Assembly (NCBI GenBank): GCA_003990745.1
Contig: RBNI01001912.1
Coordinates: 1-20,416 of the forward strand
Reading direction: 5' to 3'
From: Jimgerdemannia flammicorona
Taxonomy: Eukaryota; Mucoromycota; Endogonomycetes; Endogonales; Endogonaceae
DNA length: 20,416 bases
The notes under the pieces are model-generated. The model saw only the letters and a list, made by a program, of their open reading frames with translations. It ran no database searches and was not told where the DNA came from. Positions 1 through 20,416 of this stretch are shown here, in pieces; positions within the stretch are counted from its first letter, which is position 1; each line of letters starts with the position of its first letter. Made by a program: the position numbers and the translations under genes.

Positions 1-36
1 TTTTTTTATAGTCACTTGGACTCTGCCTTTATTATC
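1..36 (-). terminator. 3' end of LINE A: AATAAA, conserved tail, poly(A)
   Basis: On the minus strand AATAAA (33-28) is followed by GTCCAAGTGACTATA and then A's that run off the window. The same arrangement ends copies Y and X, so this is the family's 3' terminus with its polyadenylation signal. The bases AGTC-CAAGT-GACT can form a small 4-bp hairpin. Confidence 0.85.
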
Positions 37-69
37 AGTCTATGGTTAAATATACATCATCACCACCCA

Positions 70-3000
70 CTACCCAATCCCCATAGGGGGGTTCCTCCCC
101 ACCTCCTCACGAATAAAGATCACCCTATCACCTACTATGCCAACTCTCCCCCCACTCTGGCCACAAATTCACTCCACTAAGTGGTGTCGCCGACCACCCT
201 GCAGCCCCCAACCAAGCCACCAGCCTGTTAAGGTGTCTTCCATAAGCCTATGCCACCGCACCAACTGGTCCCCCAATTCCTGCCTACTTCTATCCTCAAA
301 AACGAATAACCAGTGACTGGCCAGTCCTACCCAAATAGCCAATGCCCAGCCCAAAGTAATCCACTCCTTCCCTATCCCCACTACCAATCTATCCCTCAAG
401 TCCTCCCACCTCCCTCTCACTTCATCTCTCCTACGCCTTACCCCAAAGTGCTCCCCAATTGTTTGCCAGAAATCCCCTAACACCTCACACTCTCCTAGCC
501 AATGTTCAGGCGTCTGCACCCAACCGCCCTCCTGCCCTACATTATGGCACTCCTCACAATCAAAACACCCCCCTACGATGAGGTGCCCTGAGCAAAAGTT
601 GAGCATCACATTCCTCCACAGCATGCGCCACCAGACCACCCAGTACTTTGGTGGCATCCACTTTCTCACTGCAACACTCCAAGCCCAAACACCATGCCAG
701 TTCCACTCTTTGCCAATCCCAACTCCTTGCCAACCGCTAGGCCACAGATCCTGGCCCAGTCCCCTTTGGCATTCCATTCCATCACCAATGTCGAAATCAA
801 TTAAAGGGGTACCCCCCAGCAGTACGTGATCCCATCTCTACATTGCCGGGTCCCAATCCTCCTCTCCTTCATTCCCCTGCCAACGAATTCCAATGTGGTG
901 CACCCCCTCTGCTATCTCCCACCAAAATCCTCTATATCGCAGCTGCTTAGTATCCTGAAGTCCAACTAATGCGCGGAGATCCCCTGTCATGCCCCTTGGT
1001 GATGTCCACCTCTCCCAGATCTTCTGTAGCAGAGGGACCCAGCTGCCTCCTCCCAATTCCACTGCCCTCTTTAGCCACTATGCTCGCAGACAGTGTAACC
1101 ATTTCGGGAAATCAACCAGCCCAAGCCCACCTCTCGCCACTGGTAGGGACAAGGTCTCCCAACCAATCTGACTCTGCCGTCCAGCCCAAATCCATCCTTT
1201 GGCTGACTTCACCAATCTCTTCACCACCCAAGCTGGGAAGTCCAGATGATAGGCTAGGTACCACAGCTTCAGCAGCCAGTAGACATTCAAAATCGAGACC
1301 TGTCCTGCCAGAGAAAAATGTCTTCCCCCCCAACTCTGCAGGGCCTCCTCCCAGATTCCAATCCTTTGCTCCCACCAGTACCTAGGCAGAACTGACCCAT
1401 AGACCGACAGATAGATGCCCAAGTACCGCACTGCTTCACCAGTGGGGACGATTGTTCTGATAACCTCCCCTCCCACCAGACCATTGCCGAGCACCATCGT
1501 TTCACACTTATGCCAATTCAACTTCGCTCCTGAATTCTCCTCATACCACTCCACAGTCTTCTTGAGCTCTCCAACATCAGCAATCGAACCCAAACCAACC
1601 ACCATGTCATCAGCAAAGGCCCCAACTTTCCAGCCTATGCCAAAGACAGAGAGTCCTTCTATCCTTCGCCTAATTCTATCCATAAGGGGTTCCAGAGAAA
1701 GAGCATACAAATGGGGGAAAGTGGATCCCCCTGGGGCACCCCCCTGCCTAAGGGGAATGCTACTCCTCTATGACCATTGCACATGAGCACAGCCCTACTT
1801 CCTTCCAGTAAGCTGACCATTGCCGACCGGAATTGGGATGGAACCCCCATCCTATCCAAAACTTTCGCCAGCCAGACTCTTTGCACCTGGTCATAAGCCT
1901 TCTCCTGGTCCAAGAAGACTAAATGCCCATCCAGTCCACAGGCCCTTGCCCCTTCAATAACTCCATATACCCAGGCAGTGTCATCCCTGATGAGTCGACT
2001 GCCCACAAATCCCCTCTGCTCAATACCCACGACTTGCTGGGCCACCTTCTGTAGTCTTGCCACCACCACCTTAGTCACCAACTTCCTGTCCATATCTAGC
2101 AGCATTATTGGCCGCCAGTTCTTCCAATCCTCCCGCCTTCCTTTGTTCTTATAAAGTAGCATCACCAATCCAAGGTCCTGCTCCCCCATCCACCTCCCAG
2201 TCTATAGAATGGAGTCACACAACTCCGTCATCTCTCCCATCACCCCTGGGACTCCAACCATTCGCTTCCAAAAGTCCCAGGGCAGACCATCCTCTCCAGG
2301 CGCCATACCTAGCATTGTCGCAGCAAGAACCTGGTGGATCTCATCCTCCTGTACTGTCATTACCAAATCATCTAGCCCCTCGACACATGTTGGGTGCCAA
2401 TCCTCTAATGCTCAGTCAATAGTCTCGGCATCTGCCCCACCCTCCTCCTCACTCCACAATCCACTCCATCTCTCCTTCAGCGATCCAAGAATGGCCTGTA
2501 CCCTGTGCACCAGTATTCCATCTGAGTCTAACACTGTTTCCCACCGTTGTTGTACCTGCCTCGCCCTAAGAGCCCTCGTAAGAAACTTGGAAGGCCTCTC
2601 CCCTTCCTCCAAATCCTGCCAGCGGAGCCATGCCACCAAACTCTGTACCCCCGCTTCTTCCTCTTCCCGCAGCACCTGTTGTAGTTCCCCAACCTCCATT
2701 TTCGCTCTCATTAACCTCCAGTCTTCCTCTCCCTCCAGCATTTTCAACCTCGCCCACTCCTCCAGGAGCTTGGTTAACCTAATAGAAGCCCAACGCACTC
2801 TATGCCTCCTCTGCCTCCCTGCCTCCTTGCCGGCTTCACTCCAATAAATCTTGGCTATCTCCTTCATCCTCATCCACTGAACCCCAACTGAGGCACCTTC
2901 CTGCCTCCAGTTCACCACCCTCAGCTGAATGTCCTTAGCCCACTCTTCCCACTGGGTCTTGTCATCTAACAAAGAGGAATTGAGGCGCCAATGTCCAGGC

Positions 3001-3725
3001 CCATCCCCACTTCCCCCAAAGCGCCCCTGTCCCAAAAGCCCCCAGTGATCCAACCATAGATACCATTCTACCTTCAGTGACTTCCAAACATCAAGGCCCC
3101 AGCAACTGGCTGTCAGAATCCAGTCGATTCTCATCTCCAGACCCCCTGCCCAATGTATATAAACCCTCCTATTCCCCCAGCACTCCCTCCCAGCATCTAC
3201 TAGTATACTAAGTCTCTCGACCTCCTCCCATGCCCCCAGTCCTCCACTCCTGCTCTCAGCACCTCGCCCTCCATCTGTTCTATCCAAAAGTGAGTCTCGA
3301 ACCATGTTGAAATCACCCCCAAGTACATCTACCCTGGCTTCAACAAAACTCTCACTCTCCAGTAAACCTGTCATCCAATTGACCTGCTCACCCCTCACTG
3401 CAGGGCAGTAGCAGGAGCCAATGGTAACAGGCTCTCAACCTGCACGAATCCACTCGCCCCAGACTAGTCTCTCCCCCCAGCTCCTCACATCCTGAATCTC
3501 CCCTCTGCCTCTCCTAACCAAAATTCCAACCTTGCCCTTCCAAACCGCCACACCTCCCCATTCCTTTGTCTACTCCATCATATCAGACTCAGCCTCACAC
3601 CTATCATCCTGCAACAGGAAGAGATCGGCCTCCAATCCGTTCAACCAAGTAAAAATGTTCCTTCTCCGAATAACCCCCCGTAACCCATTTACATTTAAAG
3701 AAAAAAAGTTGGTTGTACTGTTCAT
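70..3725 (-). pseudogene. LINE A ORF2: endonuclease / reverse transcriptase (broken)
   Basis: About 1,218 codons, starting at the ATG at 3725, 30 nt after the ORF1 stop. The start is supported by copy X, which has the same N-terminus. The APE endonuclease occupies about codons 1-245: an N-terminal FSLNVNGLRG block, GGDFN near 136-140, and the catalytic SDH changed to LDH near 225. Reverse transcriptase motifs are FLDQEKAYD (about 604-612), GVPQGDPLSP (about 661-670) and FADDM (about 704). A C-terminal finger CX2C...HX4C lies near 1057-1080. Stops lie at codons 52, 97, 438 and 508 and at 1080-1078, 840-838 and 171-169. A one-base deletion near 1711 shifts the frame between the PLSP and YALSLEP blocks. 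Most stops read as CGA or TGG/CAG changed to TGA or TAG. No RNase H domain was seen. Confidence 0.9.
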
Positions 3726-3755
3726 AATGAAATATAGTATGTTCGCAATCGATCT

Positions 3756-5780
3756 CTACTGCTCCATGTTCATCTCCTCCTGTGCCGTGTCCAGATTGTG
3801 CTCTGCATCCACTTCCTCCTCTTCTGCCCTCTGCGCCTCCAATCCAGCCAGCAGTTCATTCATCTCTCCATCAGCCTTCTCCTCAAACTCCTCTTGGTAT
3901 TCAATGCATGCCTCCTGCCAGAGCTGCAGTCCATGTTGCTTGTTCCAGCAGTATTCAGCCCTCTCCCCAGCAACGACCGCCATCTCTGCCTCCCGCTCCT
4001 TATCTACCTCATAGCCCTCCTCCTCCAGATACACCGCCAGGATCTCCGCCTTCAATGCCATCACCACTCCTTCCCCCTGCAAAATCCTTGCCCAATGCTC
4101 ATCACTCATCACCCTCAGATCCACCTCACCGAGCTCCTCAGCCGCCAGGTTATTCATCATTCAGCACATCCACAGGAGGTTCCCCACCTCCTTTCCTCCA
4201 GGGGTCGCCGGCCTCCTACTATCCAGCATTGTGGTGTCAGCTCCAGCACTCACAGCCTCATCCCACTCCTCTGGGACATCCACCATTTCCTCCTCACCAA
4301 CCGCCCCCACTTGTCCCCCATCCACCGCCTCCGGAACTCCAAAATGCACTCGCTGGGCCCCCTTCATTGGCACATCCTCCTCCACCCTGCTTCATGAAGC
4401 TGGGCCCCGCCTGATGAGGGGAGTAGGTGTCGGAGAATCCTCCCATGTCTCATCCCAAACCTCCAGCATACCATCAGCATATGGGTCCTTGCCAGACTTC
4501 TCCCTGTTCTCAGCAGTCCCCTTCCCAGCACTTTCACCTCCCTCACCTACCCAGACGCTTGCATTAACCCCCTCCGTTGCCACCATCTTGCTCGCCTCCC
4601 TCTGAGGTCCCCCCTTCATCTTCACCAGCAGTTCCTTCTGCCTCTTACGTCCCTGCTCTCATTCCCACTGCCCCTTGCTCACTCAAAGCCGCTTCCCATC
4701 CACCACCTCCAAGTGCGTCGCCTCCTCGAAGGCCCTCTAAGCCTTCGCCCTCCTTTCCACTGCACCACTCAGCTCTTCCAGCGCTTCCAATAGGTCCTCT
4801 TCCTCCTCCTCACTCCCCTTCATCCTCGTCACCTTACACATGATTGCCCCCCAGACCATACCAGAAGGCCAGTCCCTTGCCTTCCCGGTTGCCTCCTTTC
4901 CTGCCAACCGAATCCTCACATCCATGTCTCCCGTCCTGAGCGAAGTCCCCTCCCAGACTCTAAATCCAATATCCACCACCTCGCCGTACTCCGCCATGAC
5001 CTCCTCAACTCTCTTTCTCGTCTCCATTGCCATCACTGTGGGCACTCCTTTCACCAACAGTTGGACCACTCTAGGGTCCCACTTCAGACATCGAGCCATT
5101 GGTACACACACCTCCCCAACTACTAATCCAACCTTCAATGCCTCCTCCAATGGCTCAGCCTCCTCGAAACCCACCTCCACTCCCTCCAGTCCCTTCAAAA
5201 ACTTTACGGAAGCCGCTCCAGCCACCTGCTTAGCAATCAGCCCCAAGACCATTTTCACCGTCACCACTAGGCCTCGGAAGCACAGTGTCACTGCGAATGC
5301 CAAAATTGATTTCTTGAGTAATGGTGCTACTGCCAGGCCCGTCACACCATCTGCCAAATCCCCTTGTCTCCCAAGCCCCAGTCGCTCAGCCGCACCATCC
5401 ACTGTCCCATCTGGATTTTTTTCCAGATCAGCAGTCCCCCCTCCATCAGCCGTCACACCCCCCCCAGCCACTACACCTCCAGCCCCACTGCCCCCTCTGC
5501 CAAGGGCCACTCCCCCATGTACTGTCGCCTTCTCTGTTTCCTTGCCTTTCTTCAACCAACCCTCCAGCCTCGGCGCCGGCCTCCTCCCCTTCACCGTCTC
5601 TGCAAAGCTCGCCCTTCCAGATCCCTGTCCTCCACTACCACCTCCTCCCCTTCCTCACCCACCTGCCAGCAGCCCCCTCATTCCTCCCCCCAGGCCTGGA
5701 CCCCTCCCCACCTGCTGCCAGTCGAAAGCGCTTGGGCCACCCTGCCCAGTACACACCTTAGGTTGTCTGTCAGTTGCTAT
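3756..5780 (-). pseudogene. LINE A ORF1: gag-like RNA-binding protein (broken by stops only)
   Basis: A 675-codon frame with no indels but six in-frame stops (codons 42, 348, 366, 374, 463, 540). The expected start position reads ATA instead of ATG. In order it shows: a Gly/Arg-rich N-terminus, a FAETV block and an LEGWLKKGK block; a hydrophobic segment (CFRGLVVTVKMVLGLIA); a stretch from VQLLVKGVP through EYGEVVDIGF to DMDVRIRLA that looks like an RRM-type fold; and an acidic, Glu-rich, probably coiled-coil C-terminus ending EEMNMEQ. No CCHC zinc knuckle is visible. By family analogy it would coat the element RNA; that role is inferred. Copy B keeps CGA at the codon that is TGA at 374 here, which shows the decay route directly. 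Confidence 0.85.
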
Positions 5781-5864
5781 GTTGTTAGTCTCTTTTCTCC
5801 AAAAACGATATTGTGAGTGCTCTCCAAAGGTTGTGTAACCCGAATGGTACTGGAAAGAGATGTC
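5781..5864 (-). other. 5' UTR of LINE A
   Basis: This stretch aligns by eye with the 5' regions of B, X, G and F, for example a shared GTTTTTGGAGAAAAG block with F and a TTACACAAC-type block with B. The 5' limit at TGACATCT agrees with X, whose upstream base is fixed by a target-site duplication. An internal promoter is expected for a LINE but I see no defined motif. Confidence 0.65.
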
Positions 5865-7912
5865 ACCTCCTCCTCTTCAGCCCTCTGAGCCTCTAGTCCT
5901 GCCAACAGCTCATTCATCTCCCCATCTGCCTTCTCCTCGAATTCCTCCCAGTACTCCAGGCAGGCTTCCTGCTAGAGCTGCAGTCCATGATGCTTGGTCC
6001 AGCAGTATTCAGCCCCCTCTCCAGCGACTTCTGCCATCTCTGCCTCCCACTCCTTATCTACCTCATAGCTCTCCTCCTCCAGATATACCACCAGGATCTC
6101 CACCTTCAATGCCATCACCACCCCTTCCCTCTACAAAATCCTCGCCCAATGTTCATCACTCATCACCCTCAGATCCACCTCACCAAGCTCCTCAGCCACC
6201 AGATTGTTCATCATCCTGCACATCCAAAGAAGGTTCCCCACCTCCTTTCCTCCAGGGATCACCGGCCTCCCACCATCCAGCATTGTGGTGTCAGCCCCAG
6301 CACTCGCAGCCTCATCCCACTCCTCTGGGATGTCCACCAGTTCCTCCTCACCCACTGCCACCACTTGTCCCCCATTCGCTGCCTCCGGAACTCCAAATTG
6401 CACCCTCTGGGCCCCCTTCATTGGTACATCCTCCTCCACCCTATTTCATGAAGCTGGGCCCTGTCTGATAAGGGGAGTAGGTATCAGAGAATTCTCCTAT
6501 ATCTCATCCCAAACCTCCAGCATACCATCGGCATATGGGTCCTTGCCAGATCTCTCCCTGTTCTCATCAGTCCCCTTCCCAGCACTTTCACCTCCCTCGC
6601 CAGCCCAGACACTCGCTTTGGCCCCCTCTGTGGCCACCATCCTGCTTGTCTCCTTCTGAGATCCCCCCTTCATCTTCGCCAGCAGTTCCTTCTGCCTCTT
6701 ACATCCCTGATCTCGATCCCACTGCACCTTGCTCACTTGACACCACTTCCCATCCACCACCTCCAGGTGCCTCGCCTCCTCAAAGACCCTCCAAGCCTTC
6801 ACCCACTGTTCCACTGCACCACTCAGCTCTTCCAGCACTTCCAATAGGTCCTCTTCCTCTCCCTCGCTCCCCTTCATCCTCATCACCTTGCACACAATCG
6901 CCCCCCAGACCATACCAGAAGGCCAGTCCCTTGCCTTCCCAGTTGCCTCCTTTCCTATCAACCAAATCCTCACATCCATGTCTCCCATCCTGAGTGAAGT
7001 CCCCTCCCAGACTCTAAATCCAATATTCACTACCTCTCCATACTCCACCATGACCTCCTCAACTCTTTTCCTCATCTCCATCGCCATCACCATGGGCACC
7101 CCTTTCACCAACAGTTGGACCACTCTGGGGTCCCATTTTGAGCCATCAGTACACACACCTCCCCAACTACCAATCCAACCTTCAATGCTTCCTCCAATGG
7201 CTCAGCCTCCTCAAAACCCACCTCTACTCCTTCCAGTTCCTTCAAAAACTTTATGGATGCCACTCCAGCCACCTGCTTAGCAATCAACCCCAAGACCATT
7301 TTTACTGTCACCGCTAGGCCCCAGAAGTACAGTGTCACTGCGAATGCCGAAATTGATTTTTTGAGTAACGGTGCCACTGCCAGGCCCATCACACCATCTG
7401 CCAAATCCCCTTGTCTCCCAGGCCCCCATCTCTCAGCTGCACCATCCACAGTCACATCTGGATTTTTTTCCAGATCAGCAGTCCCATCTCCATCAGCCAT
7501 CACACCCCCCCCAGCCACTACACCTCCAGCCCCACCGCCCCCTCTGCCAAGGGCCCCTCCTCCATGTACAGTCACCTTCTCTGTCTCCTTGCCTTTCTTC
7601 AACCAACCCTCCAGCCCCGACGCCTGCCTCCTCCCCTTCACCGTCTCAGCAAAACTTGCCTCCCAGAACCTTGACCTCCACTACCACCTCCTCTCCTTCT
7701 ATGCCCACCTGCCAGCAGCCCCCTCATCCCTCCCCCCAGGCCAGGGCCTCTCCCCACTTGCTGCCAGTCGAACGCGCTCGGGCCACCCTTCCCAGTATGC
7801 ACCTCAGATTGCCTGTTGGTCATCATGTTGCTAGTCTCTTTTTCTTCAAAACGATGTTGTAGTTGCTTTCCGAATGTTGTGTAACCTGAGAGGTACTGGA
7901 GAGAGGTGTGGT
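5865..7912 (-). mobile_element. LINE copy B, 5' part only (interrupted by A)
   Basis: B holds the family 5' UTR (about 7827-7912) and nearly all of ORF1, then stops in the GAAGAGGAGGAG-coding acidic tail, exactly where the 5' end of A begins. LINEs normally lose the 5' end, not the 3' end, so loss of all of ORF2 points to interruption by A. The remainder should be left of position 1. B itself starts inside the ORF2 finger region of copy G, in the same orientation. The alternative is a tandem duplication, because ORF1 of A and ORF1 of B form a direct repeat of about 2 kb. Confidence 0.75.
5866..7826 (-). pseudogene. LINE B ORF1, 3'-truncated and broken
   Basis: It starts at a double ATG (7826 and 7823) and follows ORF1 of A throughout. 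It has a one-base deletion near 7655, just before the FAETV block, and a 7-bp deletion near 7139 at the MARCLKWDP block. In-frame stops include a TAG at 6499-6497 (TGG in A), a TAG near 6133-6131 (CAG in A), and a TGA near 6446 at the same codon as stop 463 of A. The last 15-20 codons are cut off at the junction with A. Many differences from A are CpG to TpG or CpA, for example CGG to CAG and ACGG to ATGG. Confidence 0.85.
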
Positions 7913-7914
7913 GA

Positions 7915-9462
7915 TATTTTTTTGGCCCTCCTCAATGACATGAAGCCAATGATTGGCCATTCTCATCCAAATTGCCAGAGTCCACCCCAAAGTCAACCAT
8001 TCATCCCCAACTCTACCCACTAACCTATGTCAGAGGTCCCCCCATCTCCCTCCTTCTACCTCTACTCAGGGCTACACACCCAATCTACTCACAATACTCT
8101 ACCAAAAATCCCCCAAACCTTCACACTCTTCTAGCCAATGTTCAGGCATTTGTACTACTCCCCCCTCCTGACCAATGTCTATACATTTCTCTTTCAACAC
8201 TATCTCCAGCCATACTCTTCACACTCTGTCATATACCTTCTTCTGATCCAGGAACACTAACTGATCATTCACCCCAACAGCCCTAGCCCCTTCAATCACT
8301 CCATGGACCCAGGCAGTACCATCACAGATCAGCCAGCCTCCAACAAATCCCCTCTGTTCCACTCCTAGCACCTGCTGAGCAATCCCCTGCAGCCTAGTCA
8401 CCAAGATCTTTGTTACTAGCTTATAGTCCATGTCGAGAAGCATGATCAGCTGCCAGTTCTTCCAATCTTTCCTTCTCTAATCCTTATAGAGCAAGGAGAC
8501 CAGCCCTAGACACTGGCCCCCAATCAAAGCTCCAGATTGAAGCACCTCATCACACATCACTATTATTTCCTCCTGAGCCACTGCCACCCCAGCCATCTTC
8601 TTCCAAAAATCCCTGGGCAATCCATCCTCTCCTGGGGCAGTCCCCTTGCTTGTTGCAGCCAAGACCTTGCAAATTTCCTCCCCTGGCACCAGAACCCCCA
8701 TCATCTCCAGACCCAATACAGGGTCAGGATACCAATCCTCCAATTGACAATCAATATTCAGGGTACCCTCACCCCCCTTCTTCCTCACTCCATAAGTTCC
8801 CCCAGTGAGTCTTCAGCAATCTCAGAATTGCAGGAGTCCCCACCACCATCTCTCCATCTCTGTCCAACATATCATCCCACCACTGTTTAGTTCTCTATAC
8901 CTAGAGCAACTATGATAAAAACTTAGTGGGCCTCTCTTCTTCCTCTAACTCTGGCCACTACAGCCTCACCACCATCTCCTTTAGCTTAGCCTCTTCCTCT
9001 ATTAATAACACTTCCTTAAGCTCATTGACTTCCTTTTGAATCTGCAGCACACACTAGTCGGCTATCTCCCAATTCTCTAGTACCCCTGCCCATCTCCCCA
9101 GGAGTGTTGCCAATTGTTGTGAAGCCCATTATACTTGCTACCACTGCTGCATACTCCTTTCTTTCCCTGCCTCTCTCCAGTACCTCTGAGTACTCAACTT
9201 CAACCTCTACCAGCAATCTCTAATCACCATTCCATGCTTCCACTACTGACCAATTTTCCCAACAACCTCTATCTCCCAGCCCACCCATAGAGAACCATTC
9301 TCCACTAAAGAAAAATTCATGCACCAATGTCCAGGCCCATCCCCACTTCCCCCAAAACTCCCCCCCCCTATCAGACCCCAGTGATCCGACCATGGGCACC
9401 AAACCACCTCCAGTGCAGCCCATATATCCCCTCCCCAGCACTCCACCATCAATATACAGTCA
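7915..9462 (-). pseudogene. LINE G ORF2 remnant with internal deletion
   Basis: The order on the minus strand is: endonuclease end with an intact SDH (9460-9300), a badly decayed linker (9300-8800), an APGEDGLPRDFWKK block and N-terminal RT (8788-8477), then EQRGFVGG and FLDQKKVYD, which is RT motif A (8443-8219). At about 8185 the RVWLEIVLK stretch that follows motif A joins directly to the finger sequence (CIDIGQEGG, PEHWLEEC). RT motifs B and C and the thumb, about 1.3 kb, are therefore deleted, and the frame is kept across the join. The endonuclease Ser codon is still TCG, whereas A has TTG. The remnant ends within the post-finger region at B. Confidence 0.75.
9453..9462. repeat. Target-site duplication of X, left copy
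   Basis: TATACAGTCA here matches TATCTAGTCA at 16278-16287 at 8 of 10 positions. The probable original is TATCCAGTCA, with one change in each copy. Joining the flanks restores the ORF2 endonuclease sequence of copy G on the minus strand. Confidence 0.75.
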
Positions 9463-9538
9463 TGACATCTACCATTCAGGTGACACAGGACTCAGACAAC
9501 ACTTTTTTCAATGTTTTTGGTGATAGACAACTATCAAC
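9463..9538 (+). other. 5' UTR of LINE X
   Basis: It matches the 5' UTR of G (minus strand, 16598-16512) closely, sharing a CAGGTGACACA block, a GACTCAGACAACACTTT block and a TTTTTGGTGA block. It matches A more loosely. No promoter motif can be assigned. Confidence 0.65.
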
Positions 9539-11391
9539 ATAGATGGCAATGATCAAACTGGTGAGCTTGCTGGCCAGGGGGGCAGTGGTGCCTTTGGCTG
9601 GCAACAGGTGGAGAGGAGGGGAGATGGTTTGGGGATGCCAGGGGCCTCAATGGCTGGCCGAGGCACTGGTGGTAGAGGGAGGGGTGGCTTGAGGCAGTGA
9701 GGAGGAGAGAGGTTGACCTTTGCTGACAAGGTCAAGATGGGGAGGATGGCCTTGGATCTGGATGGTTGGCTGAGCCTGCAGAAGGTGTCGATGGCTGCTG
9801 CTGAGGGTCAGGGAGGAGTGCCCAGGGGAGTGTTGGGTGGTAGGAGAGGGGGGGGAGTAGGGGCTGGTGATGTGACAGTGGTTGATGGATCAGAACAGAG
9901 GGTGGGCATGAGGCCCAGGAACCTGGTGGATGGAGTGATGGGCATAGTGTCAGCACCATTACTTAAGAAATCAAGGTTGGAATTTGCTGTCACAATGTGC
10001 TTCAGGGGCTTGGCAGTGACTGCAAGGATGATCCTAGGGCTGGTGGCACAGGAGGTGAAGGGGGCAGTATCAGTGAAGTTTTTGAAGAGGAAAGAAGGGG
10101 TTGAGGTGGGGTTTGAGGAAGAGGAAGCATTGTTGGCTGCCATGGAGAAGGGAGTGATAATGGGTGGAGTTGTGGTCCCTATAGCCAGGTGCATGTACTG
10201 GAACCCCGAGTGGTGTAGTTGACAGTGTTGGATTTTCCTATAGTATTGAGGGAGAGGGCCAGAGAGTTGATTGTGGGGGTGGTCAAGGAGTATGGGGAGA
10301 TTGTGGACATTGGGTTCAAGGTCTGGGAAGGAACAGAGCTTCAGACTGGTGACATTGATGTCCAGGTGAGGCTGGCCGGAAAGGAGAATGCAGGAAAGAT
10401 GAGAGATTGGCCAGCAACTCTGAAGTGGAGACTGGTAGAGTGCAAGGTCATGCGAGTGAAGCAGACTCTGGAAGAGGAGGAAGATTTGCTTGAGGCCCTC
10501 GAGGACCTAGAGGGGGTAGTCAAGAGGAGGAGATTGGCTTGGCAGGAGTATGAAGTGAAGACAGTGGTGGAAGTAGTCAAGGGGAAGAGGACCAGGGTGG
10601 ACAAGGTGATCTGGGAGAAGATGTAAGGGAGGAGAATCCAGAAGGAGTGGCTGGCAAAGTTGGGTAGTGGTGGGGCTGGCAGTAGTACAGGGGGAGAGCA
10701 GGATTGCATGCAAGTGACTGGGCAGGGGGAAGTGGGATGGCCCAAGGTGGGGCCCAGGATGGACCAAGTGAGGAGAAGTAGAGCAGCATGGAGGTGGATG
10801 TAGAGGAGTCCAACCTCAGTATAGTGTCCCAGGTAGGGCAGAGGGTGAGGAGGAGTTACTGGATGTCCTGGATGAGGAATGGGATGAGTTAGTGAGGAGG
10901 AGCACTTTGGTGGACCTGGGGGTGGGGGTTGGTCAGGTCACCCAGTGTATGGCAGAGGCAGTAGATGAGGAGAAGTGGCTGTGGAAGACTTTGGAAGGGG
11001 TGGCAGCAGAGGAGCTGGAGGGAGAGGACTTCTGGTTATGGAAGAAAGGCATTGGGAGGAAATCCTTTATGGAGAGGAGGTGCCGAGGAAGGTTCAAAAT
11101 GAGATACTGGCAGTACTATTGAAATCAGTTGAATATCAGGTCAATGATCAGAGAGAGGTGGAACTTCAGGGGATTGAAAATGACTGGGTGGCTTACTTGT
11201 AGGGATCGAGGAAGGGTTTGGAGAAGTGGAGAGTGGTCTGTGCAGACTATTGGGCAGAGAAAGAAGTGGTGGATAGAGTGGAATGTCAGGAAATCTTGAA
11301 GGCATTGGATGCTCAGGCTGTAGCAGAGGGAGACTTGGAAGCAGAGCAGCAATTAGATCTGGCTGTAGATGAGATGAGCATGGAATACTAG
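9539..11391 (+). pseudogene. LINE X ORF1: gag-like protein (broken)
   Basis: The start position reads ATA, as in A and G. The frame runs through FGWQQVERRG, a TGA at 9698-9700, FADKV, LDGWL and CFRGLAVTARMILGLVA. Near 10206 a one-base loss shifts the frame, followed by a TAG at 10216-10218 (CAG in the family). The RRM-like part continues from 10219 (EYGEIVDIGFKVWEG, GDIDVQVRLAGKE). A stop at 10624 and a decayed middle follow, then an acidic C-terminus with a TAG at 11203 and the final TAG at 11389. The last residues, DEMSMEY, match the end of ORF1 of A. The ORF2 start follows 31 nt later. Confidence 0.8.
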
Positions 11392-11422
11392 GTTGGGTTA
11401 TCACATTCAAACATTATTCAAT

Positions 11423-12199
11423 ATGAACAGTACAACTAGAATATTCTCTTTGAATATGAATGGGTTGAGGGGGGTGGCTCAGCAAAGGTTCATATTTGGT
11501 TGGCTCAAGGGGCTGGATGCGGATCTCTTCTTACTGCAGAATATACATTATGAGGCAGATGTGGACTTTCAGGATTGAACTAGAGAGTGGGGGGGAGCAG
11601 CAGTGTGATTTGGGTGGGTGGATATCCTAGTTCAGAAGGGGATGGGGGATATTGGTGATATAGGACATTGGGGGAGTTGGTTGGTGTGGAGAGTGTGGAA
11701 GAGGCCTGGTTGGAGCCCTTTGATGGTTGGGTCATGTTATTCCCTGATAGAGAGGGGGGAGTGGGTGGACTGGATCAGGAATTTGCAAGAGGCAGGCTGG
11801 TATCATGGTTGAGGCTGAAATCAAATGTCTGGGGGGAGATTTCAATATTGTAAGAGATAATGTAGTGGACTGGACCAATAGTGGGAGAGAGATGAAGGGC
11901 CGAAGTTTTGAATTAGATGGTTGGATGACAATGGAGAGGTTGAGCTCTCTGGTGGACTTGGGAGACAGTTCTGAGAGGATTGTTGAATTTATACTCACTG
12001 GGTGGCTGGACTGGGTTCTAGAATCGACTGGATACTGACAGCAGAATGCTGGGGAGTGGATGTCTGGGCCATGCTGGAGGTGGTTTGGTGCCCATGGTCT
12101 GATCACTGGGGTCAGCTTGGGGGGGGGAGGTTTGGGGGAAGTGGGGATGGGCCTAGACATTGGTGGCTCAATTCCTCTTTGTTGGAGGATAGAAATTTA
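11423..12199 (+). pseudogene. LINE X ORF2, 5' part: endonuclease domain (broken)
   Basis: It starts at the ATG at 11423 with MNSTTRIFSLNMNGLRG, the same N-terminus as A, and carries the DLFLLQ block typical of APE-type LINE endonucleases. GGDFNIVRD is at about 11832-11858. The catalytic SDH is preserved in WCPWSDHWG (about 12090-12115). A stop at about 11576 and frameshifts between 11580 and 12040 break the frame. The coding sequence is cut at 12199, just after SSLLEDRN, by insertion Y and resumes at 13317. Confidence 0.85.
12185..12199. repeat. Target-site duplication of Y, left copy
   Basis: GAGGATAGAAATTTA is repeated without mismatch at 13302-13316, immediately after the poly(A) tail of Y. 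A perfect 15-bp duplication is typical of target-primed reverse transcription and indicates a recent event. Confidence 0.95.
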
Positions 12200-12200
12200 G

Positions 12201-13205
12201 TGGATGAAGAGGGCCAGTAAGTTGAGAGGAGGAGAATGGGTGCCCCTTATACAGCGTTTGTGGGAGGTGAGGGTGTCACCACGGGGTGAATCTGGGGATC
12301 TACTGTCCTTAGTGGCCTTGGATGGTAGCCAGAGGATGAGGTATAAAGGATTCTGGTGGGGAGTGGTTGATGGGGCCCATCGCATTGGGATCCATTGGCA
12401 AGGTACTGAAGGGGATGAGGACTGGGGTCCGGAGATGTGGAGGTGGGACTGGCTCTTGTTGGGAGGGAATCTGGTGGAGGACTTCTGATTGGCGGAGAGC
12501 ATGGAGTGCCTTCGGGGTCTGGGGCAGGACCTTTGGCCGGGGTCCTGGCAAGGAGCTGGGATCAGGGAGGGTTGGGACTGGGCAGGCATCTGGTCTTGGA
12601 TCAAGGTAGTGTCGAGGTGGCTCCCACCAAAACTCTGGCTAGCGTGGTGGAGGCTATTGAGGCGGAATGTGATGCTGAACTTTCGGGCTGGCCATCTGGT
12701 GGATGGTAGGGTATTCAATTGTGAGGAGTGCCATAATATAGGGCAGGAGGGTGGGGTGGTGCAGACACCGGAACATTGGCTGGGGGAGTGCGAGAGTATG
12801 GAGAATTTTTGGAAGATAGTTGGGGGGAGATTGGGTGTAACAGTGCCTGACCCTGAGGTGGGTGAAAGGTGGGCAGCACTACAGTCAAGGCTGGTGGGGG
12901 GGGTGGGGAATGAGTGGCTGACAGTAGGTTGGACTGTTGCAATATGGGTGGGGCTTGCAGAACACTGGCAGAGTGTATTTGAGGAGGGCCCTCAGAGACC
13001 TGTGAACCTGAGGGTTGTAAGGTGGGAGGAGCTGATGCTTGAGCTCTTCAAAGCATGGTGGATTGGATGGGGCCCCAAAGGGGGGAGATGTAAGGATCTA
13101 GTAAGAAGGATTGTAGTGAAGAGTGGGGGTAGAGTGGTGGTGAAGGTGGGCAGGGTGGCATTTGCTGGGACTCGAGAGGGAGGGGGGACCTGTGGGATAG
13201 GGTAA
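12201..13205 (+). pseudogene. LINE Y ORF2 C-terminal fragment with finger
   Basis: One frame of about 335 codons with a single internal TGA at 12486-12488; from 12489 it is open for 238 codons to the TAA at 13203. It shows GFWWGVVDGAHRIGIHWQG, then GLGQDLW, RRNVMLNFRAGHLV, and the finger CEECHNIGQEGG...EHWLGEC (CX2C...HX4C). A basic stretch near the end closes with GIG and the stop. It has no start codon of its own and no catalytic domain, so it is an inert fragment. The internal TGA is at the same codon as a TGA in copy X. Confidence 0.9.
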
Positions 13206-13243
13206 GGGCGTAGGTTGTATAAATATTACTATAGATGGCAGTT

Positions 13244-13264
13244 AATAAAGGGAGTCCAAGTGAC

Positions 13265-13301
<37 letters not shown>
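13244..13301 (+). terminator. 3' end of Y: AATAAA and 34-nt poly(A)
   Basis: AATAAA at 13244-13249, the conserved GTCCAAGTGACTATA end, then an uninterrupted run of 34 A's at 13268-13301. The long pure tail fits a recent insertion, though tract length may be affected by sequencing or assembly. Confidence 0.9.
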
Positions 13302-13306
<5 letters not shown>

Positions 13307-13316
13307 TAGAAATTTA
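13302..13316. repeat. Target-site duplication of Y, right copy
   Basis: An identical 15 bp to 12185-12199. Right after it the ORF2 sequence of X continues (the ADWE block, matching the EEWA region of A). Confidence 0.95.
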
Positions 13317-16192
13317 TAGGCTGACTGGGAGATGGAGGTCATTGGAAAAATCAGTTAATGGCAGGAGTGGGGCCTGGCAATAGGAGATCATTGGAGAAGG
13401 CTGAAATTGAGTGCTCAGGGATATTGGTGAGAGGTGGGGAAAGAGAGGAGTGTTCAGCAGCAGCAGAGAGTACACTGGGCCTCATAGTGGCTGGCGATGC
13501 TCCTGGGGAGATGGGCAGGAGTACTAGAAGATAGAGAGGTGGTGGACTAGTGCATTGCAAGGATTAAAAAGGAAGTCCAGGAACTTAAGGAGGTGCTACA
13601 ATTGGAGGAAGAGGCTAAATTGAAGGGGATGGTGGTGAGGTTGAGGTGGTAAGGGTTGGAGGAAGAGGAGTGACCTACTTGGTTTTTATCGCAGATGTTA
13701 CAAGCATAGAGAACTAAGCAGTGGTGGGATAGTGTCTTGGATGAGGATGGAGAGATGGTGGTGGAGACTCCAGAGATTCTGAGATTGCTAAGGTCCTACT
13801 GGGAGGACCTATGGAGTGAGGTAGAAGGGGGTGAAGATGCCTTGGACATTGAATGGTAGTTGGAGGGTTGGCATCTGAACTCAGTGATGGGTCAAGAGGC
13901 TCTGGGGGACTGAGTGAGAGGGGAGGAGGTTTGCAAGGTCCTGGTTTCAACAAGCAAGGGGATGGCACCAGGAGAGGATGGGCTTCCCTGGGATTTTTGG
14001 AAAAAGATAGCCAAAGTAGAGGTAGTATTGGAGGAGTTGACAGAGATGTGCATTGAGGTTCTTCGGTCTGGAACTTGGATTGGGGGCCAGCATCTAGGGC
14101 TGGTTTCTTTGCTCTTTAAAGATAAGAGGAGAAGGAAAGATTGGAAGAACTGGCATCCAATCATACTCCTTGATATGACTACAAGCTGGTTATGAAGGTC
14201 TTGATGACTAGGCTACAGGGGATCACTCAGTAAGTGCTGGGAGTTGAGCAAAGAGGTTTTGTTGGTGGTTGGTTGATTTGAGATAGGATAGCCTGGGTCC
14301 ATGGAGTGATTGAAGGGGCTTGGACTACCAGGGTTGATGGCTGACTGGTGTTTCTAGATCAGGAGAAGGCATATGATAGAGTGCAGAGCTGGCTAGAAGG
14401 GGTGCTGAAGCAGGTGGGTATTTCACCAGGGTTCCGGAGGTCATTAATCAGTCTTTTGGAGGACAGTCAGGCAGCCATGGTGATTAATGGACACAGGGGT
14501 GTCACTTTCCCTCTGGGTTGTAGGGTGCTGCAGGGGGATCCTTTGTCATCTATCTTGTATGCCCTTTCCTTGGAGTCCTCCTATTGGACAGAATCAGGCA
14601 TCAAATTGGGGGTTTAGACATTCTGGGGATTAATTGGAAGGTGGGGGCCTTTGCAGACGATATGGTAGTTAGATTGGGTTCATTGGCAGATATGGAGAAA
14701 TTACAGTGGACTGTAGAATGGTATGAGAGAGGCTCTGGTGCTAGACTCAATTGGCACAAATGTGAGACTATTGTGTTAGGTGGAGGAATAGTTTGTGGTG
14801 ACATAATTGGGATAGTGGTACCAGCAGGAGATCCCATTCACTATCTGGGGATCTACTTCTCCATATGAGTCCCTCCTTTCTTGCACTTGGTGGGAACAGC
14901 GACTCCTAGTATGGGGGGATGTGCTTTTATGGTGGAGCAGTTGGCATATTTCCTTAGCAGGAAGGGTGATGGAGCTGAATGTGTATTGGCTGCCAAAGCT
15001 GTAGTATGTTGGGTACCATCTGGATTTCCCAGCATGAGTAGTCAGGCACCTTCTGAAGATGGCGAGGACATGTATCTGGGCTGGGTGGCGAAGTCAGATA
15101 GGATGGGAGGAGCTGACTCTATCTGTGGATGGTAGCAGACTGGGCTTGGTGGACTTCCCCAAATACCTTCATTACTTGAGAGCATGGTGGCTGAAGAGAG
15201 TAAGTGAGTTAAGGGGACAGGAGTGGGTACCACTTATGCAAAGGGTGTGGGAGGCCCAGTATACCCCCCACAGTATATCTGGTGATCTGCTTGCAATGGT
15301 GGCCCTGGATGGGAGTGAGAGGTTGTGATATAAGGGCTTTTGGTGGGGGGTGGTGGATGGTGTCTGGAGAATTGGTCTTCAATGGCAGGGTGATGAAGGC
15401 AAGGGAGATTGGGGACTGTGGATGTGGAGATAGGACAGGCTTCTGTTAGGTGGTGCTTTGGTAGAGGACTTTTGACTTGGCAATGGTATGGAGTGCTTGT
15501 GGGGCTTAGTGTGGCCTATTGCATAGCAGAGGGTGGGGATTGACAAGGGGTGGGACTGAAATTGGCTTTGACCTTGGAGCAAGCAGGTGATGTGGTGGCT
15601 CTCCCCCAAGTTCTGAGTAGTGTGGTGGCAGTTTCTAAGGTGGAATATGATGTTGAACTTTCAGTCTAGACACTTGGTGGCAGATGGCTGGTATGAGTAC
15701 AAGGAATGTTTGGATATTGGACAGGAAGGGGGAGTGATTCAAACGCCTGAACATTGGCTTGGTGAGTGTGACATTCTGGGGGTTTTTTGGCACCACATTG
15801 CAGATAGGTTAGGGCTGCGAGCCCTGGTGGGAGGGGAAGGGGAGAGTTGGGGAGAGCTCTACCACAGGTTAGTGGGGGGGGTTGGTGATGAATAGCTGAC
15901 CCTGGGTTGAGCTCTGGCAATTTGGGTTGGGCTAGCTGAACATTGGTCATATGTATTCTAGGAGGGTTGGCAGATAGAGATTGGGAATAGGGTGGTATGA
16001 TAGGAATGGCTATTATTGGACATTTTGAATAGCTGGTGGTGGGGGTGGGGACCTGGTGGGGGTAGATGCTAGGGATTGGTGAAGTGTATGTGTCAGAAAA
16101 GTAGAGGGCAGGTCTGGGTGGTGGATGACTGGGTCATCTTCCAACAGAGAGAGGTAGAGGAGAGTGAGGGGGATCCAAGGGGTATTGGGTGA
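13317..16192 (+). pseudogene. LINE X ORF2, 3' part: linker, RT and finger (broken)
   Basis: This continues the interrupted ORF2. It has a decayed Glu-rich linker (13320-13850), then MAPGEDGLPWDFWKK (about 13960-14010), LGLVSLLFKDKRRRKDWKNW, EQRGFVGG (about 14245), RT motif A FLDQEKAYD (14351-14377), motif B as VLQGDPLSS (about 14526), and motif C FADDM (about 14650-14665). The Pro of motif B is changed. Frames shift near 14175, 14570 and 14870. The C-terminal half has many TAG and TGA codons where A or Y has TGG. The finger is altered (CLDIGQEGG, EHWLGEC; the first Cys position reads Tyr). It ends at the TGA at 16190-16192. About 10 CpG remain in 2.9 kb. Confidence 0.85.
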
Positions 16193-16233
16193 GGGGATGG
16201 GGGTAATATTGTATTATTAATATAGATTGAGGT

Positions 16234-16277
16234 AATAAAGGGAAGTCCAAGTGACTATAAAAAAAAAAAAAAAAAAA
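16234..16277 (+). terminator. 3' end of X: AATAAA and poly(A)
   Basis: AATAAA (16234-16239), GTCCAAGTGACTATA and a 19-nt A run ending at 16277. The target-site duplication TATCTAGTCA follows at once. Confidence 0.9.
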
Positions 16278-16287
16278 TATCTAGTCA
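16278..16287. repeat. Target-site duplication of X, right copy
   Basis: TATCTAGTCA, paired with TATACAGTCA at 9453-9462. On the minus strand it continues the endonuclease sequence of G (ATTTATACTTACTGGG, like X near 11987). Confidence 0.75.
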
Positions 16288-16598
16288 ATCCTGGAGCCCA
16301 GCCCTGCCACCCAGTAAGTATAAATCCAATGATCCTCCCCTACCTCCCCAAGTCAACCAAAGAGCTCAACCTCTCCAACTCCAACTAATCAACCAACCCA
16401 CCACTTCTGCCCCCCATTTCTCTCCTGCCATCTCCACCTGACATATTGCCAGTTGAAGGCACTGCTGCCCCCCTAGTTGATATACTCGCCAGTACATTCA
16501 TTGCTGTCTATGTTGCTAGTCACCTTTCACCAAAAATGTTGTAGAAAGTGTTGTCTGAGTCTTGTGTCACCTGAATATTACTGGTGAAAGGATTGTGT
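16278..16598 (-). mobile_element. LINE copy G, 5' segment with internal deletion
   Basis: On the minus strand this reads the family 5' UTR (16598-16512), then an ORF1 start position (ATA at 16511-16509) and about 25 ORF1 codons ending near FNWQYV. A jump near 16430 leads straight into the second half of the endonuclease (GAGAGGTTGAGCTCT block, as in X near 11933). About 2.3 kb of ORF1 and N-terminal endonuclease is missing. The segment stops at the X insertion and resumes at 9462. Its 5' end abuts E ORF2 at about 16598. Confidence 0.8.
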
Positions 16599-17567
16599 TC
16601 AGTCTCTATCTCAAACCCCTCTCAACTCTTCTTTTCTTACCCTTCTGCCCCTTTTCAGCCACCTCCCCAATGTTCTGCCAATATATACTCACTAAGTATT
16701 TAAATCTACCCCACTATTCAGCAATAGACAAACCACTATTCACCCATCTCACTACTTTCTGTCTGGATAAGAAAATAAATTACTCCCTTTCCACCAGTCA
16801 CTATAGCAAGGCTATATTAAGATATCAACACTCTCCTCCACTACTAACTGCCTAAAATCTTCTACATACTTCAACTCTCCAATGATCTAACCATAGGCAC
16901 TACTACACCTCTACAATATCCAATACATTACTCAATGTTCTGCTATCAGAACTCAATCAATCTGTGTCTCCACTATCCCATCACTCACCAGATGCTATCT
17001 AGTGAATATCTCTGATATATCTTCAGCCCTCAGCTATATACTGTCTATCAGTCTTATGTCTTTTTCTACCTGAAGCCACTGAGACAGCCTCTAAGAGATA
17101 GCCACACCAGCCCTGCCATCAGTCTAATCCAGTGCATGATCCTATACTATATTAAAGTCCTCTTTCAGAATGTCCAATCCCAGGGATTCCCAACTCTCCC
17201 AAGCCAACCACTTTTCTACCCATTGCTTTCACTCTATGCTAACTGCTAGCATATATATATATAGAGCTCACCAAAAGTCTATCCCCAGTATCTTCCTTCA
17301 GCCTTCCCCATATTAGATGACTTCAAAAGGTTTCCACATCAACTAGCTCTCTCTTTCCCACATCAACCAGAATACCAACTTGCCTATTCCAACCAGTACC
17401 TCCTTACTCTACAACTCATAGTCCTATACATCATAAGTCTGAACTTTCTGAAGAAACACCATATCATACCTCCAGACCTTTAGTTACCAAAAGAGATGCT
17501 GCTACTTTACCCTATTGCATAGTCCATTGACATTGATCAATAAAATTTGTAGAATATTCTTCATCAT
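16599..17567 (-). pseudogene. LINE E ORF2 5' part: endonuclease remnant
   Basis: It starts at a double ATG (17567 and 17564), 11 nt after the ORF1 stop. LINVNGLCNRVKQQHLFW matches the FSLNVNGLRG start of A, and MVFLQK matches the LFLLQ block. Near 16890 LWLDHWRVE corresponds to the SDH region, with Ser changed to Leu as in A. Near 16640 KYLVSIYWQNIGE matches the KEIAKIYWSEAGK linker of A. Stops are dense throughout; nothing is translatable. Confidence 0.7.
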
Positions 17568-17578
17568 GAATAGTGAGT

Positions 17579-19434
17579 TTAGATATCAGCTGCTTTGACC
17601 ACTACCTTCTCAGCTCTACTCTTGATGATATTCCATCACTTCTCACAGACTACCCTCCAAATTCACTCTCTATTGTTACTGCTACAGAAGAAGTTCACTT
17701 GTTCTGATGCCATCTTTCTGATATTGACTATCTAAGCTTCATCTATCACATATTCTTCATCCTCCAGAAGGGCTGCTATCATAGTGGTCACCAACTTTAG
17801 TCCTTACAAAACCACCTTAAGTAATCCTTCCCATGCTCCTGGAGAACCCTGAAATATATTCACTTCATTAATGTCTTCCACTACAAGCTTCTCAAGAATA
17901 GTCTGGAACCAACCATCTGCCACCATTGCCAGTGGCCCTGAGGTGGCAAGCCTAGGCATCCTGCACAACATCTGAAGCAATTATCTATCTGCAGACACAT
18001 CAGAAGCAATCTCTACCAGATCATCCTCCTCTGAGACTTTGTTCAGCCACACTACCTCCTCATTCTCAGAATATTCCCAGTGCATATTCGCAGACCTGGC
18101 CATTATCATGTCATCTATCTGAGTCTCTGGGACTACCCCCACACTCTTCTCAAAACCTGCTCCCCTCTCTTCCTTGCCATCAGCCTACTTTCCCTTCATA
18201 GGTGTATTCATAGAGTCTTTCACTCGCCTCAGCTGTGAGAAGGACACTTCAACTGCTTCCATCTCTTCTATTCAATTCCTGTCAGTCATGACCCTCCAGC
18301 CTCCTCCTCAGTAGATACTTGTAATACCATCTACAACCACTTCAAATTCTTCTTATACTATTGCCTCCTCTTTCCATCTGCCTCAATCTAGATCCAATCC
18401 TTGGCAAACTCCTCTTACTTCCTCTTCTGCAGAGCCTTCACTTCATCATACTCCTCCAGGGCAATTAGCAACTCTTCCTCTTTCTGCACAGAGCCTTTCC
18501 TCCTCTAAACCTAATACTTCTATCCCCTAACATAAATCATCTCAGGCCAGTCTTGTTCCAACTCAGTCACCTTCTTCTCTTCCAACCTCACCATTTACCA
18601 TTTCTCAACTATATACTCTCCCAAAACATGAACCCAAATCTACCATCTCACCAAAACCTTCCCTTGCTTTGGCTACCACTGTTTTAGTCTCCTGCCTGCT
18701 CAATGTCAGCAGTCCTTCAACCACCAGCCTCACTACATACAGGTCACACCTTAAGTATCTTACTATCACTATCTTGATATTCTTGACCACCAGCTCCTTC
18801 TCCAGGGCTTTCACTATGGCCTCCTTCTCAACAAAGCCAACCTCAACTATCTCTACTGAAGGAATAAATCTCAGTGACTCTGCTCCCACATCCTCCTCAC
18901 CCACCAGTTACAGAACCTTCTTGACTGATAGGCCAAGGCCCAAGAAGTTGGTAGAGACTGCCCATGTCAATACTAACTTATGAAAGAATAGATATACTAT
19001 CAGCTCATCAGTCTCTACAGCTAGGGTTTTCTTACTCTTGCTTCCAGAAATGCCAGTCACTACCTCATTCAGAATTACTATACCACTAGCAGTCACACCC
19101 TCAGTCACTGGTCTAGCCCCAGGAAAGCCAGTCTCAGCAGTCCCACCTCTAGACCCTGGACCCCTGCTGGACCTCTGATTAGTCAGCTGAGCAGTCAACT
19201 GATGCCCCCCCCTGTCAATATTACACCCTTCCTGCTCTCCAACTATAGACCTAGAGGCCACCCTCCTGCCCTTCACCACTGTATACCAGCCATTCACTCC
19301 AGTTGCCAGCCTTTGACCAGTAGCCTGCCTTCCTACTCCACTAGCCCCAGTAGCTGCTGCAAACTCTTGAAGAGACTCAGACCAGGCCTCCTCCTCTCCA
19401 GGCACTTAGAGCTCAATGATCCTTGGGTTGCCAT
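17579..19434 (-). pseudogene. LINE E ORF1, divergent gag-like remnant
   Basis: A start ATG at 19434 (MATQGS) is followed by an early TAA near 19408. An open stretch (19405-18908) contains GWYTVVKGRRVASRS, the counterpart of the FAETVKGRR block, and NFLGLGLSVKKVL, the counterpart of CFRGLVVTVKMVLGL. A second stretch (18904-18605) has VGFVEKEAIVKALEKELVVKN and YVVRLVVEGLL, matching VGFEEAEPLEEAL and RVVQLLVKGVP in A. The C-terminal third (18600-17579) is too decayed to follow closely. The end is taken as the TAA at 17581-17579 because ORF2 begins just after it. Confidence 0.7.
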
Positions 19435-19515
19435 TATATAAAAACTTGACAGATTTCAATGAAACTTGTTGTGATTTGTTGCCAGACTCTTGCTGAACCT
19501 AGTATACCAGTATAG

Positions 19516-19707
19516 ATGAAGTGAAAACTTGAGAACATATTGCTTTTCACAAAAAGATGCCCATGTAGCTCTCACTCTGAGTGATTTGAGCAAAAGAAGT
19601 CCTAAGAATCTAAGAACCTCAAAATACTAGCAGTTAGATCAGGTCTTTACTCTAAAAATTCTAAGATATATTCTCAAAGAAACTTTGAAAAAGTCGAGCC
19701 CTTTAGA
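19516..19707. other. Unassigned AT-rich spacer between E and F
   Basis: About 190 bp lies between the apparent 5' ends of two divergent LINE copies. I see no ORF, RNA gene or convincing repeat. One CpG (19694) lies near the F end. It could be old host DNA or decayed extended 5' UTR sequence. Confidence 0.5.
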
Positions 19708-20220
19708 ACAACCTTTCTCTGGTAACATTTGAGTTAAACAAACTTTTAGCTATACTCAAGACATTGTTTTTGGAGAAAAGTTACCAGCAACATGACAACC
19801 AATGAGCATTCTGAGCTATATGCTGAGCAGGGTAGCCCTAGTGTATTAAACTGGCAATGTCAGGAGGAGTGAGTCATCTGATGACTGGACTGGAGGGCTG
19901 GCTGAGGAAGGGCAAGGAGATGGTAAGATCTGCAGGGGCTGGTGGAGCAGCCCATGGCAGCAAGAGTAGTAGGGCTGGGGGAGTAGTAGCTGGGGGGAGT
20001 GAGACTACTGATAGTAAGGAGACTGCTAATCTGGAAAACAATCCAGATATAGTGGCTGATAGTGGATCTGGACAGGGGGGGGGCATGAGGCCTGGGGATC
20101 TGGCAGATGATATTATGAGCCTGGTGGTAGTACTATTACTCAAGAAATTGTGATTGGAATTTACTATCACATTGTGTTTCCAAGGCTTAGCAGTAATGAT
20201 GAGGATGATTCTGAGGCTTC
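19708..20220 (+). mobile_element. LINE copy F, 5' fragment
   Basis: The 5' UTR (about 19708-19791) closely follows A, including GTTTTTGGAGAAAAG and the GGGTT/GAGTT-ACACAA-type block. ORF1 then follows for about 430 bp and ends abruptly near 20220. A copy with a complete 5' end but no 3' end suggests interruption or deletion at 20220, not 5' truncation. Confidence 0.8.
19792..20220 (+). pseudogene. LINE F ORF1 N-terminal fragment
   Basis: It starts at ATG 19792 (MTTNEHSELYAEQGSPS, comparable to MMTNRQSEVHTGKGGPS in B). A TGA at about 19870 ends that frame, and about 100 nt of the Gly/Arg-rich part is missing. A second frame (19857-20152) has LEGWLRKGKEM, GGVVAGGSE, NLENNPDIVADS, MRPGDLADDIM and LLLKKL, all with counterparts in A. 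A TGA follows at 20151, then EFTITLCFQGLAVMMRMIL to the break at about 20220. Confidence 0.8.
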
Positions 20221-20416
20221 TTGTAAGCGCACAACCTCCAAGCCACGGAAATCACACGCGATCTACAAACAAATCTGGAAATCACCTGCAAGATCATGAA
20301 GCTGAGTCAAACAGAAGTCACAGTGCACAAAGCTGAGTCAATACCAAGTCACAGAACACAAGATTCACACAAACGGGATCTTACCAATCCAGAACAAATG
20401 CATATATACCCAGCCC
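20221..20416. other. Non-LINE DNA at right edge, possible other element
   Basis: The sequence has no visible match to the LINE family. It holds about five CpG in 196 bp (for example CACACGCGATC), unlike the CpG-poor LINE copies beside it. It contains two TGAGTCA heptamers (20304 and 20334 regions) within an imperfect direct repeat of about 30 bp (GCTGAGTCAA...GTCACAG). The first bases, TGTAAGCGC, would suit the 5' end of an LTR, but no partner LTR is in the window, so this is only a possibility. Confidence 0.4.

Follow-up and report, generated by a model that had tools for sequence, protein, structure and literature searches.

A probable nest of successive LINE insertions filling a contig of Jimgerdemannia flammicorona

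The window, that is, the whole stretch of DNA that was analysed, is one complete contig of the fungus Jimgerdemannia flammicorona (RBNI01001912.1, G000:C1912 in our numbering), with a length of 20,416 bases, nearly all of which is non-LTR retrotransposon. Segments were delimited by comparing the window with itself and with the copy designated A, which gave seven LINE segments, and the genome searches were run on the assembly to which the contig belongs, of 134.8 Mb in 7754 contigs. Six of these segments (A, B, G, X, Y and E) had been claimed in a preliminary description of this DNA and both comparisons find them at about the positions given there, the seventh (F) lying beyond the six. Searches of the window for Rfam families and tRNAs returned none. 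A tyrosyl-tRNA synthetase query assembled from another contig (L059) has Actinomortierella as its nearest match (67%), ahead of other zygomycete fungi, among the 120 of 7999 hits listed; on this one gene the host would most likely be Mucoromycota-like, without a close relative in the database searched.

At the left of the window, copy A (1..5863, minus strand) is a full-length LINE read from LINE position 5863 to 1, its poly(A) forming the left end of the contig; in the order proposed below it would be the youngest level of the left branch. Three further genomic copies align with A at 85% identity, two of them (L009 and L011) from LINE position 2 and one (L012) from position 12, all as far as 5863. 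A is of full length, yet its ORF2 is split over several frames. Copy B (5864..7909, minus strand) comprises LINE positions 1-2054 and stops close to the end of ORF1, at the start of A; with 88% identity to A it belongs to the same family. Between the 5' end of B and the next copy there is an interval of about 13 bases (7910..7922) without a match to B or G.

Copy G (minus strand) lies on both sides of X. Its part on the 3' side of X (7923..9462) lacks about 1.3 kb at 8190/8195 as well as, within the window, its last approximately 300 bases, and its part on the 5' side of X (16288..16597) consists of the start of ORF2 followed, near 16418-16447, by a jump to a LINE 5' end; G carries two internal deletions. 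The two pieces around 8190/8195 are 1317-1321 bases apart in seven of the eight contigs listed in both searches and about 2645 bases apart in the eighth (C78), from which it follows that the deletion of about 1.3 kb is not common to these eight. As for the 5' piece, all 39 of its other best matches end at window positions 16418-16447, the listed relatives not sharing this second deletion either, and the piece could be part of G or come from another copy.

Within G lies copy X, on the plus strand, in two parts. The first (9463..12199) runs from the 5' end through ORF1 into the start of ORF2 and stops with the left duplicate of the Y target site, which it includes; the second (13317..16275) ends with poly(A). 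Between them is copy Y (12200..13301, plus strand), a 5'-truncated LINE starting from about LINE position 4784 (the last 1.08 kb) and belonging to a family other than that of X, with a tail of 34 A at 13268-13301.

To the right of G, copy E (16598 to about 19601, minus strand), which would be the oldest host, provides the 5' end, ORF1 and ORF2 start of a distinct LINE family. The preliminary description had ended E at 19515; its relatives carry it to about 19601, two of the four stopping at 19601-19602 and one (L081) extending to 19689. The seventh fragment, F (19713..20221, plus strand), is the 5' end of a further LINE, placed head to head with E. About 110 bases (19602-19712) separate the 5' ends of E and F, and it is into this interval that the alignment of L081 reaches. 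F is cut by another abundant repeat (20222..20416), probably an LTR, which begins with TG and has only its start in the window; the 39 other matches listed for it, drawn from 2165 first-look candidates, are 94-98% identical, most of them starting at window positions 20221-20224 and two at 20208.

The coding pieces place these elements among LINEs. Two pieces of A and three longer genomic pieces score above the cut-off for the Pfam family RVT_1, and Exo_endo_phos was detected under the Pfam cut-off in A and L011 (E-values of 0.021 and 0.0029). The ORF1 pieces scanned against Pfam gave no family above its cut-off, and no RNase H family came up in the scanned ORF2 pieces, two of them C-terminal, though weak or broken domains could escape such a scan. 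The best solved structures for ORF2 were an entry named 'RNA-directed DNA polymerase' and four of LINE-1 ORF2p, ahead of five of the R2 type. A protein search with an 808-residue piece of ORF2 returned six relatives, the best with 26% identity over 87% of the query and the only organism-named one being from Rhodosporidiobolus odoratus; a plasmid search with the reverse transcriptase piece gave one distant match.

Human LINE-1 is characterized by ORF1 and ORF2, an AP-type endonuclease, a reverse transcriptase, a poly(A) tail, 5' truncation and target-site duplications. The copies in the window resemble LINE-1 and its relatives in having poly(A) tails, 5' truncation (in Y) and duplications of 12-15 bases, and in the combination of ORF1 with an ORF2 for a reverse transcriptase and a putative AP-type endonuclease (here below the Pfam cut-off). 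They differ in being fungal and only distantly similar. A poly(A) tail together with a target-site duplication is present both for Y (15/15) and for X (8/10).

The relation between the copies is clearest where a guest is flanked on both sides by one host which becomes continuous when the guest is removed, as was found for Y in X and for X in G. In the case of Y, the same 15 bases occur at 12185-12199 and at 13302-13316 (15/15 identical), a level of sharing that arose once when two 25-base stretches of the window were drawn at random 20,000 times, pairs closer than 200 bases being skipped yet counted within the 20,000. Once Y is taken out, leaving a single duplicate, the restored X can be aligned across the joint to four of four relatives with no gap there, with 85-94 identical bases per 100 on either side and a joined score of about the sum of the two flanks. 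The duplication around X is decayed: 9451..9462 and 16276..16287 agree at 10 of 12 bases, or at 8 of 10 when the first two A's, which are ambiguous with the tail, are set aside, and 341 of 50,000 random pairs (0.7%) did as well as the latter. An imperfect duplication that this proportion of random pairs can equal weighs against the nested account. G with X removed likewise aligns gap-free at the joint to four of four relatives, and the restored G is 74-77% identical to the relatives of X.

Both joints also reunite endonuclease homology. The endonuclease peptide of A matches the joined X as one piece with 252 bits, compared with 127 and 132 for the separate flanks, and the joined G as one piece with 207 bits, compared with 194 and 31, values obtained with both flanks of G one base short at the joint and with the joined G lacking the 5' piece beyond the deletion, which the left flank alone had included. 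The preliminary description had rested these two levels on target-site duplications and on ORF2 reading restored across the gap, and had proposed excising the guests and aligning the restored hosts; the duplications are there, exact over 15 bases for Y and decayed to 8/10 for X, the reading is recovered in the form of rejoined endonuclease homology, and the proposed excision leaves X and G continuous in all of the four relatives aligned to each.

The remaining levels, A in B, B in G and G in E, are readable from one side only, because the contig starts in the poly(A) tail of A, and a contig break at this point means that the missing halves of the hosts cannot be read; the leftward extension proposed in the preliminary description is not possible in this contig. 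The assembly often breaks at LINE tails: in 30 of 150 listed matches, all on the minus strand, the distance to the start of the contig is 1063-1124 bases, which places a LINE 3' end at the contig end, and among the eight contig ends that were fetched (L001-L008) the tail itself is present in L001, L003, L004, L007 and L008, L002, L005 and L006 starting further inside the LINE.

At the joint between A and B, nine other loci, representing seven distinct places, track B to 5862-5864 and then continue into the end of ORF1, at the point where the window switches to the 5' end of A (of the ten loci aligned one is the window itself, and L089 and L090 coincide with L024 and L026). When the genome was searched with a 200-base query across this joint, 40 of 2298 candidates being scored, all 39 other listed matches stop at query positions 100-103, corresponding to window positions 5861-5864. 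At the joint between E and G, four of four relatives of E track it to 16598 and continue for about 1.5 kb, the window switching there to a LINE 5' end. In both places, therefore, the 5' end of a guest lies against the interior of its host. At the joint between B and G, all 39 other listed matches on the 3' piece of G end at query positions 258-264 (window positions 7928-7922), 12-18 bases before the start of B at 7909. The idea that hosts are cut exactly where the 5' end of a guest starts, put forward in the preliminary description for these levels, holds for A/B and G/E, where relatives run on past the joint; at B/G about 13 bases intervene. These 13 bases (7910-7922) fit neither B nor its host G. 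Extra bases are known at L1 5' junctions, and our guess, by analogy, is that those at the 5' junction of B may be of the same kind.

The joints and the restored hosts support both the order that had been described (G in E, X in G, Y in X, B in G and A in B) and the way in which it had been derived. The window would accordingly have been built up by poly(A)-tailed, L1-like LINEs inserting one after another in a fungal genome rich in LINEs, most likely through target-primed reverse transcription: E would have come first, G would have inserted into E, X into G and the 5'-truncated Y into X, and on the other branch B would have entered G near its 3' end before A entered B, the copies representing at least four related families active at different times. 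We consider this account as a whole, with the orders E, G, X, Y and E, G, B, A, to be very probably correct. Within it we infer the insertion of B into G, the biochemistry, and the other sides of the A, B and G joints, which would lie off the contig. Counting against it are the one-sidedness of three of the five levels, the approximately 13 bases at the B/G joint, and the deletions in G together with its possibly separate 5' piece.

The same points can be turned into a different explanation, according to which only X and Y are truly nested and the A/B, B/G and G/E joints were produced by deletion or recombination between neighbouring LINEs. The window indeed lacks the remaining halves of B, G and E, the damage in G shows that deletions occur here, and the bases at B/G are unexplained; however, at all three joints the guest starts at its own 5' end or no more than a few bases from it, which random deletion would rarely hit three times, and B and E are cut internally rather than at an end. 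We regard such an origin of these joints as improbable. A somewhat smaller chance still is left for some of the one-sided joints being assembly chimeras between repeated sequences, an explanation to which the breaks at LINE tails described above, with tails seen at fetched contig ends, lend something, but the joints in question bring a LINE 5' end against the interior of a host with no long common sequence seen that could mislead an assembler, and on the same contig the Y and X levels have duplications and continuous hosts. A head-to-tail array of LINEs was discarded as an explanation, since B and E are without their 3' parts and meet the 5' end of a guest inside their own bodies.

The nested copies do not all belong to the one LINE family to which the preliminary description had assigned them. 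Identity to A over the aligned stretches is 88% for B, 64-69% for G, 61-62% for X, 65% for Y and 56% for E. Copies of one LINE family are conventionally held to share at least 80% identity, a level that the six do not all reach over most of their length. In a tree built from 1.27 kb of ORF2, L004-L007 and L009-L012 fall with A and L071-L074 with X, G is sister to the X group, and about one change per site separates the A and X groups. In a second tree, built from the last 1.06 kb, Y falls with L076-L079 at about 1.3 changes per site from X, whose own placement is unsure owing to a long branch. The endonuclease region of E is distant from that of A, its relative L084 having 35% amino-acid identity. 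These comparisons give at least four families of one LINE type, namely A/B, X with G, Y, and E, and with the restored G at the identity to the relatives of X given above, X and G could count as two.

The closest other place in the genome, among 40 scored for each copy, has an identity of 81% for E, 82% for G, 89% for X, 92% for Y (94% over 975 bases, the former value being for the whole query), 94% for B and 95% for A, values which are not strictly alike given that they come from the 3' part of ORF2 (A and Y), the first half of ORF2 (X and G), ORF1 (B), and ORF1 with the ORF2 start (E). They agree with the nest, do not order A relative to B, and order E relative to G weakly at most. Nested copies order insertions without a molecular clock and could for this reason serve to calibrate how a genome erodes its transposons; in this window insertion order and divergence broadly agree. 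The logic is the same as that of interruption analysis, which as presented in one report (PMC2517846) derives the relative age of nested transposons in mammalian genomes without a clock; here it is applied to one fungal contig and mostly to one LINE type instead of to mammalian genomes. A search of the open-access literature by chosen terms returned no paper on these LINEs or on their CpG pattern.

How unusual such a nest might be was considered against the LINE content of the genome. LINE sequence made up 13,214 of 40,000 bases, or about a third, of a sample that took 2 kb (bases 3001-5000) from each of 20 contigs, themselves picked by us out of 60 listed at random, with no weighting for contig size. 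A review of zygomycete genomes (PMC10386755) gives repeats as more than 77% of the genome of Jimgerdemannia flammicorona and Ty3/Gypsy LTR elements as dominant in most of the genomes analysed; the high repeat load reported there for genomes such as those of the Endogonales is shared by the present assembly, the difference being the large part that LINEs take in our sample. In a simple random-insertion model, windows with at least five nested pairs and a depth of four arose once in 8760 with LINEs at 33% of the insertion-accepting part of the genome, 31 times in 7382 at 47% and 144 times in 7334 at 60%, which scaled to the whole assembly gives about 0.8, 28 and 130 windows, respectively; since 30% of the genome is taken to accept no insertions in the 47% case, about 19 windows is a fairer figure than 28. 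An earlier, smaller run had given 0/876, 9/1106 and 26/1467. On this model a genome so rich in LINEs should contain deep nesting somewhere, the window lying in the tail of the distribution. The nest is real, and ordinary for such a genome.

The copies also differ in how far CpG has been lost, observed/expected ratios being 0.025 in E, 0.048 in G, 0.076 in X, 0.254 in Y, 0.256 in B and 0.371 in A. Taken alone these ratios would pass for a perfect clock; dating single copies by CpG content was nevertheless rejected, since the relatives of each copy (those of G standing outside the comparison) show similar values, which means that it is families that are ordered. At sites where relatives have CpG, the rate of change in the focal copies was 4-9 times that at other C or G sites: 11 of 44 and 5 of 29 such sites had changed in two stretches of A, 7 of 22 in B, 3 of 5 in X and 10 of 43 in Y, E having no such sites. 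All 36 of the 36 changes were transitions. An excess of changes at CpG, consisting of transitions throughout, points to methylation and deamination.

According to a 2026 review (PMC13297926), 5mC has largely been replaced by 6mA in early-diverging fungi, and the CpG methyltransferase DNMT5 is tabulated there for some Mucoromycota. The CpGs of these LINEs may have been erased by transitions only, down to a ratio of about 0.02 in the oldest family against a ratio near 1 in some LINE-free DNA, so that the nest would preserve, layer by layer, a long history of cytosine methylation directed at repeats, and of deamination, in a lineage reviewed as mostly having 6mA in place of 5mC; we put this forward as a tentative reading, possible and somewhat short of probable. 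CpG loss in the repeats of an early-diverging fungus is directly testable by methylation sequencing.

Among the 20 sampled stretches, six that are LINE-free have CpG ratios of 0.67-1.13 (one of them, L059, holds a recognised gene), six with at least 90% LINE have ratios of 0.01-0.29, and two that are partly LINE have ratios of 0.00 and 0.18. The six others, LINE-free or nearly so, have ratios of 0.02-0.22, and it follows from these low values that CpG loss in this genome is not limited to LINEs.
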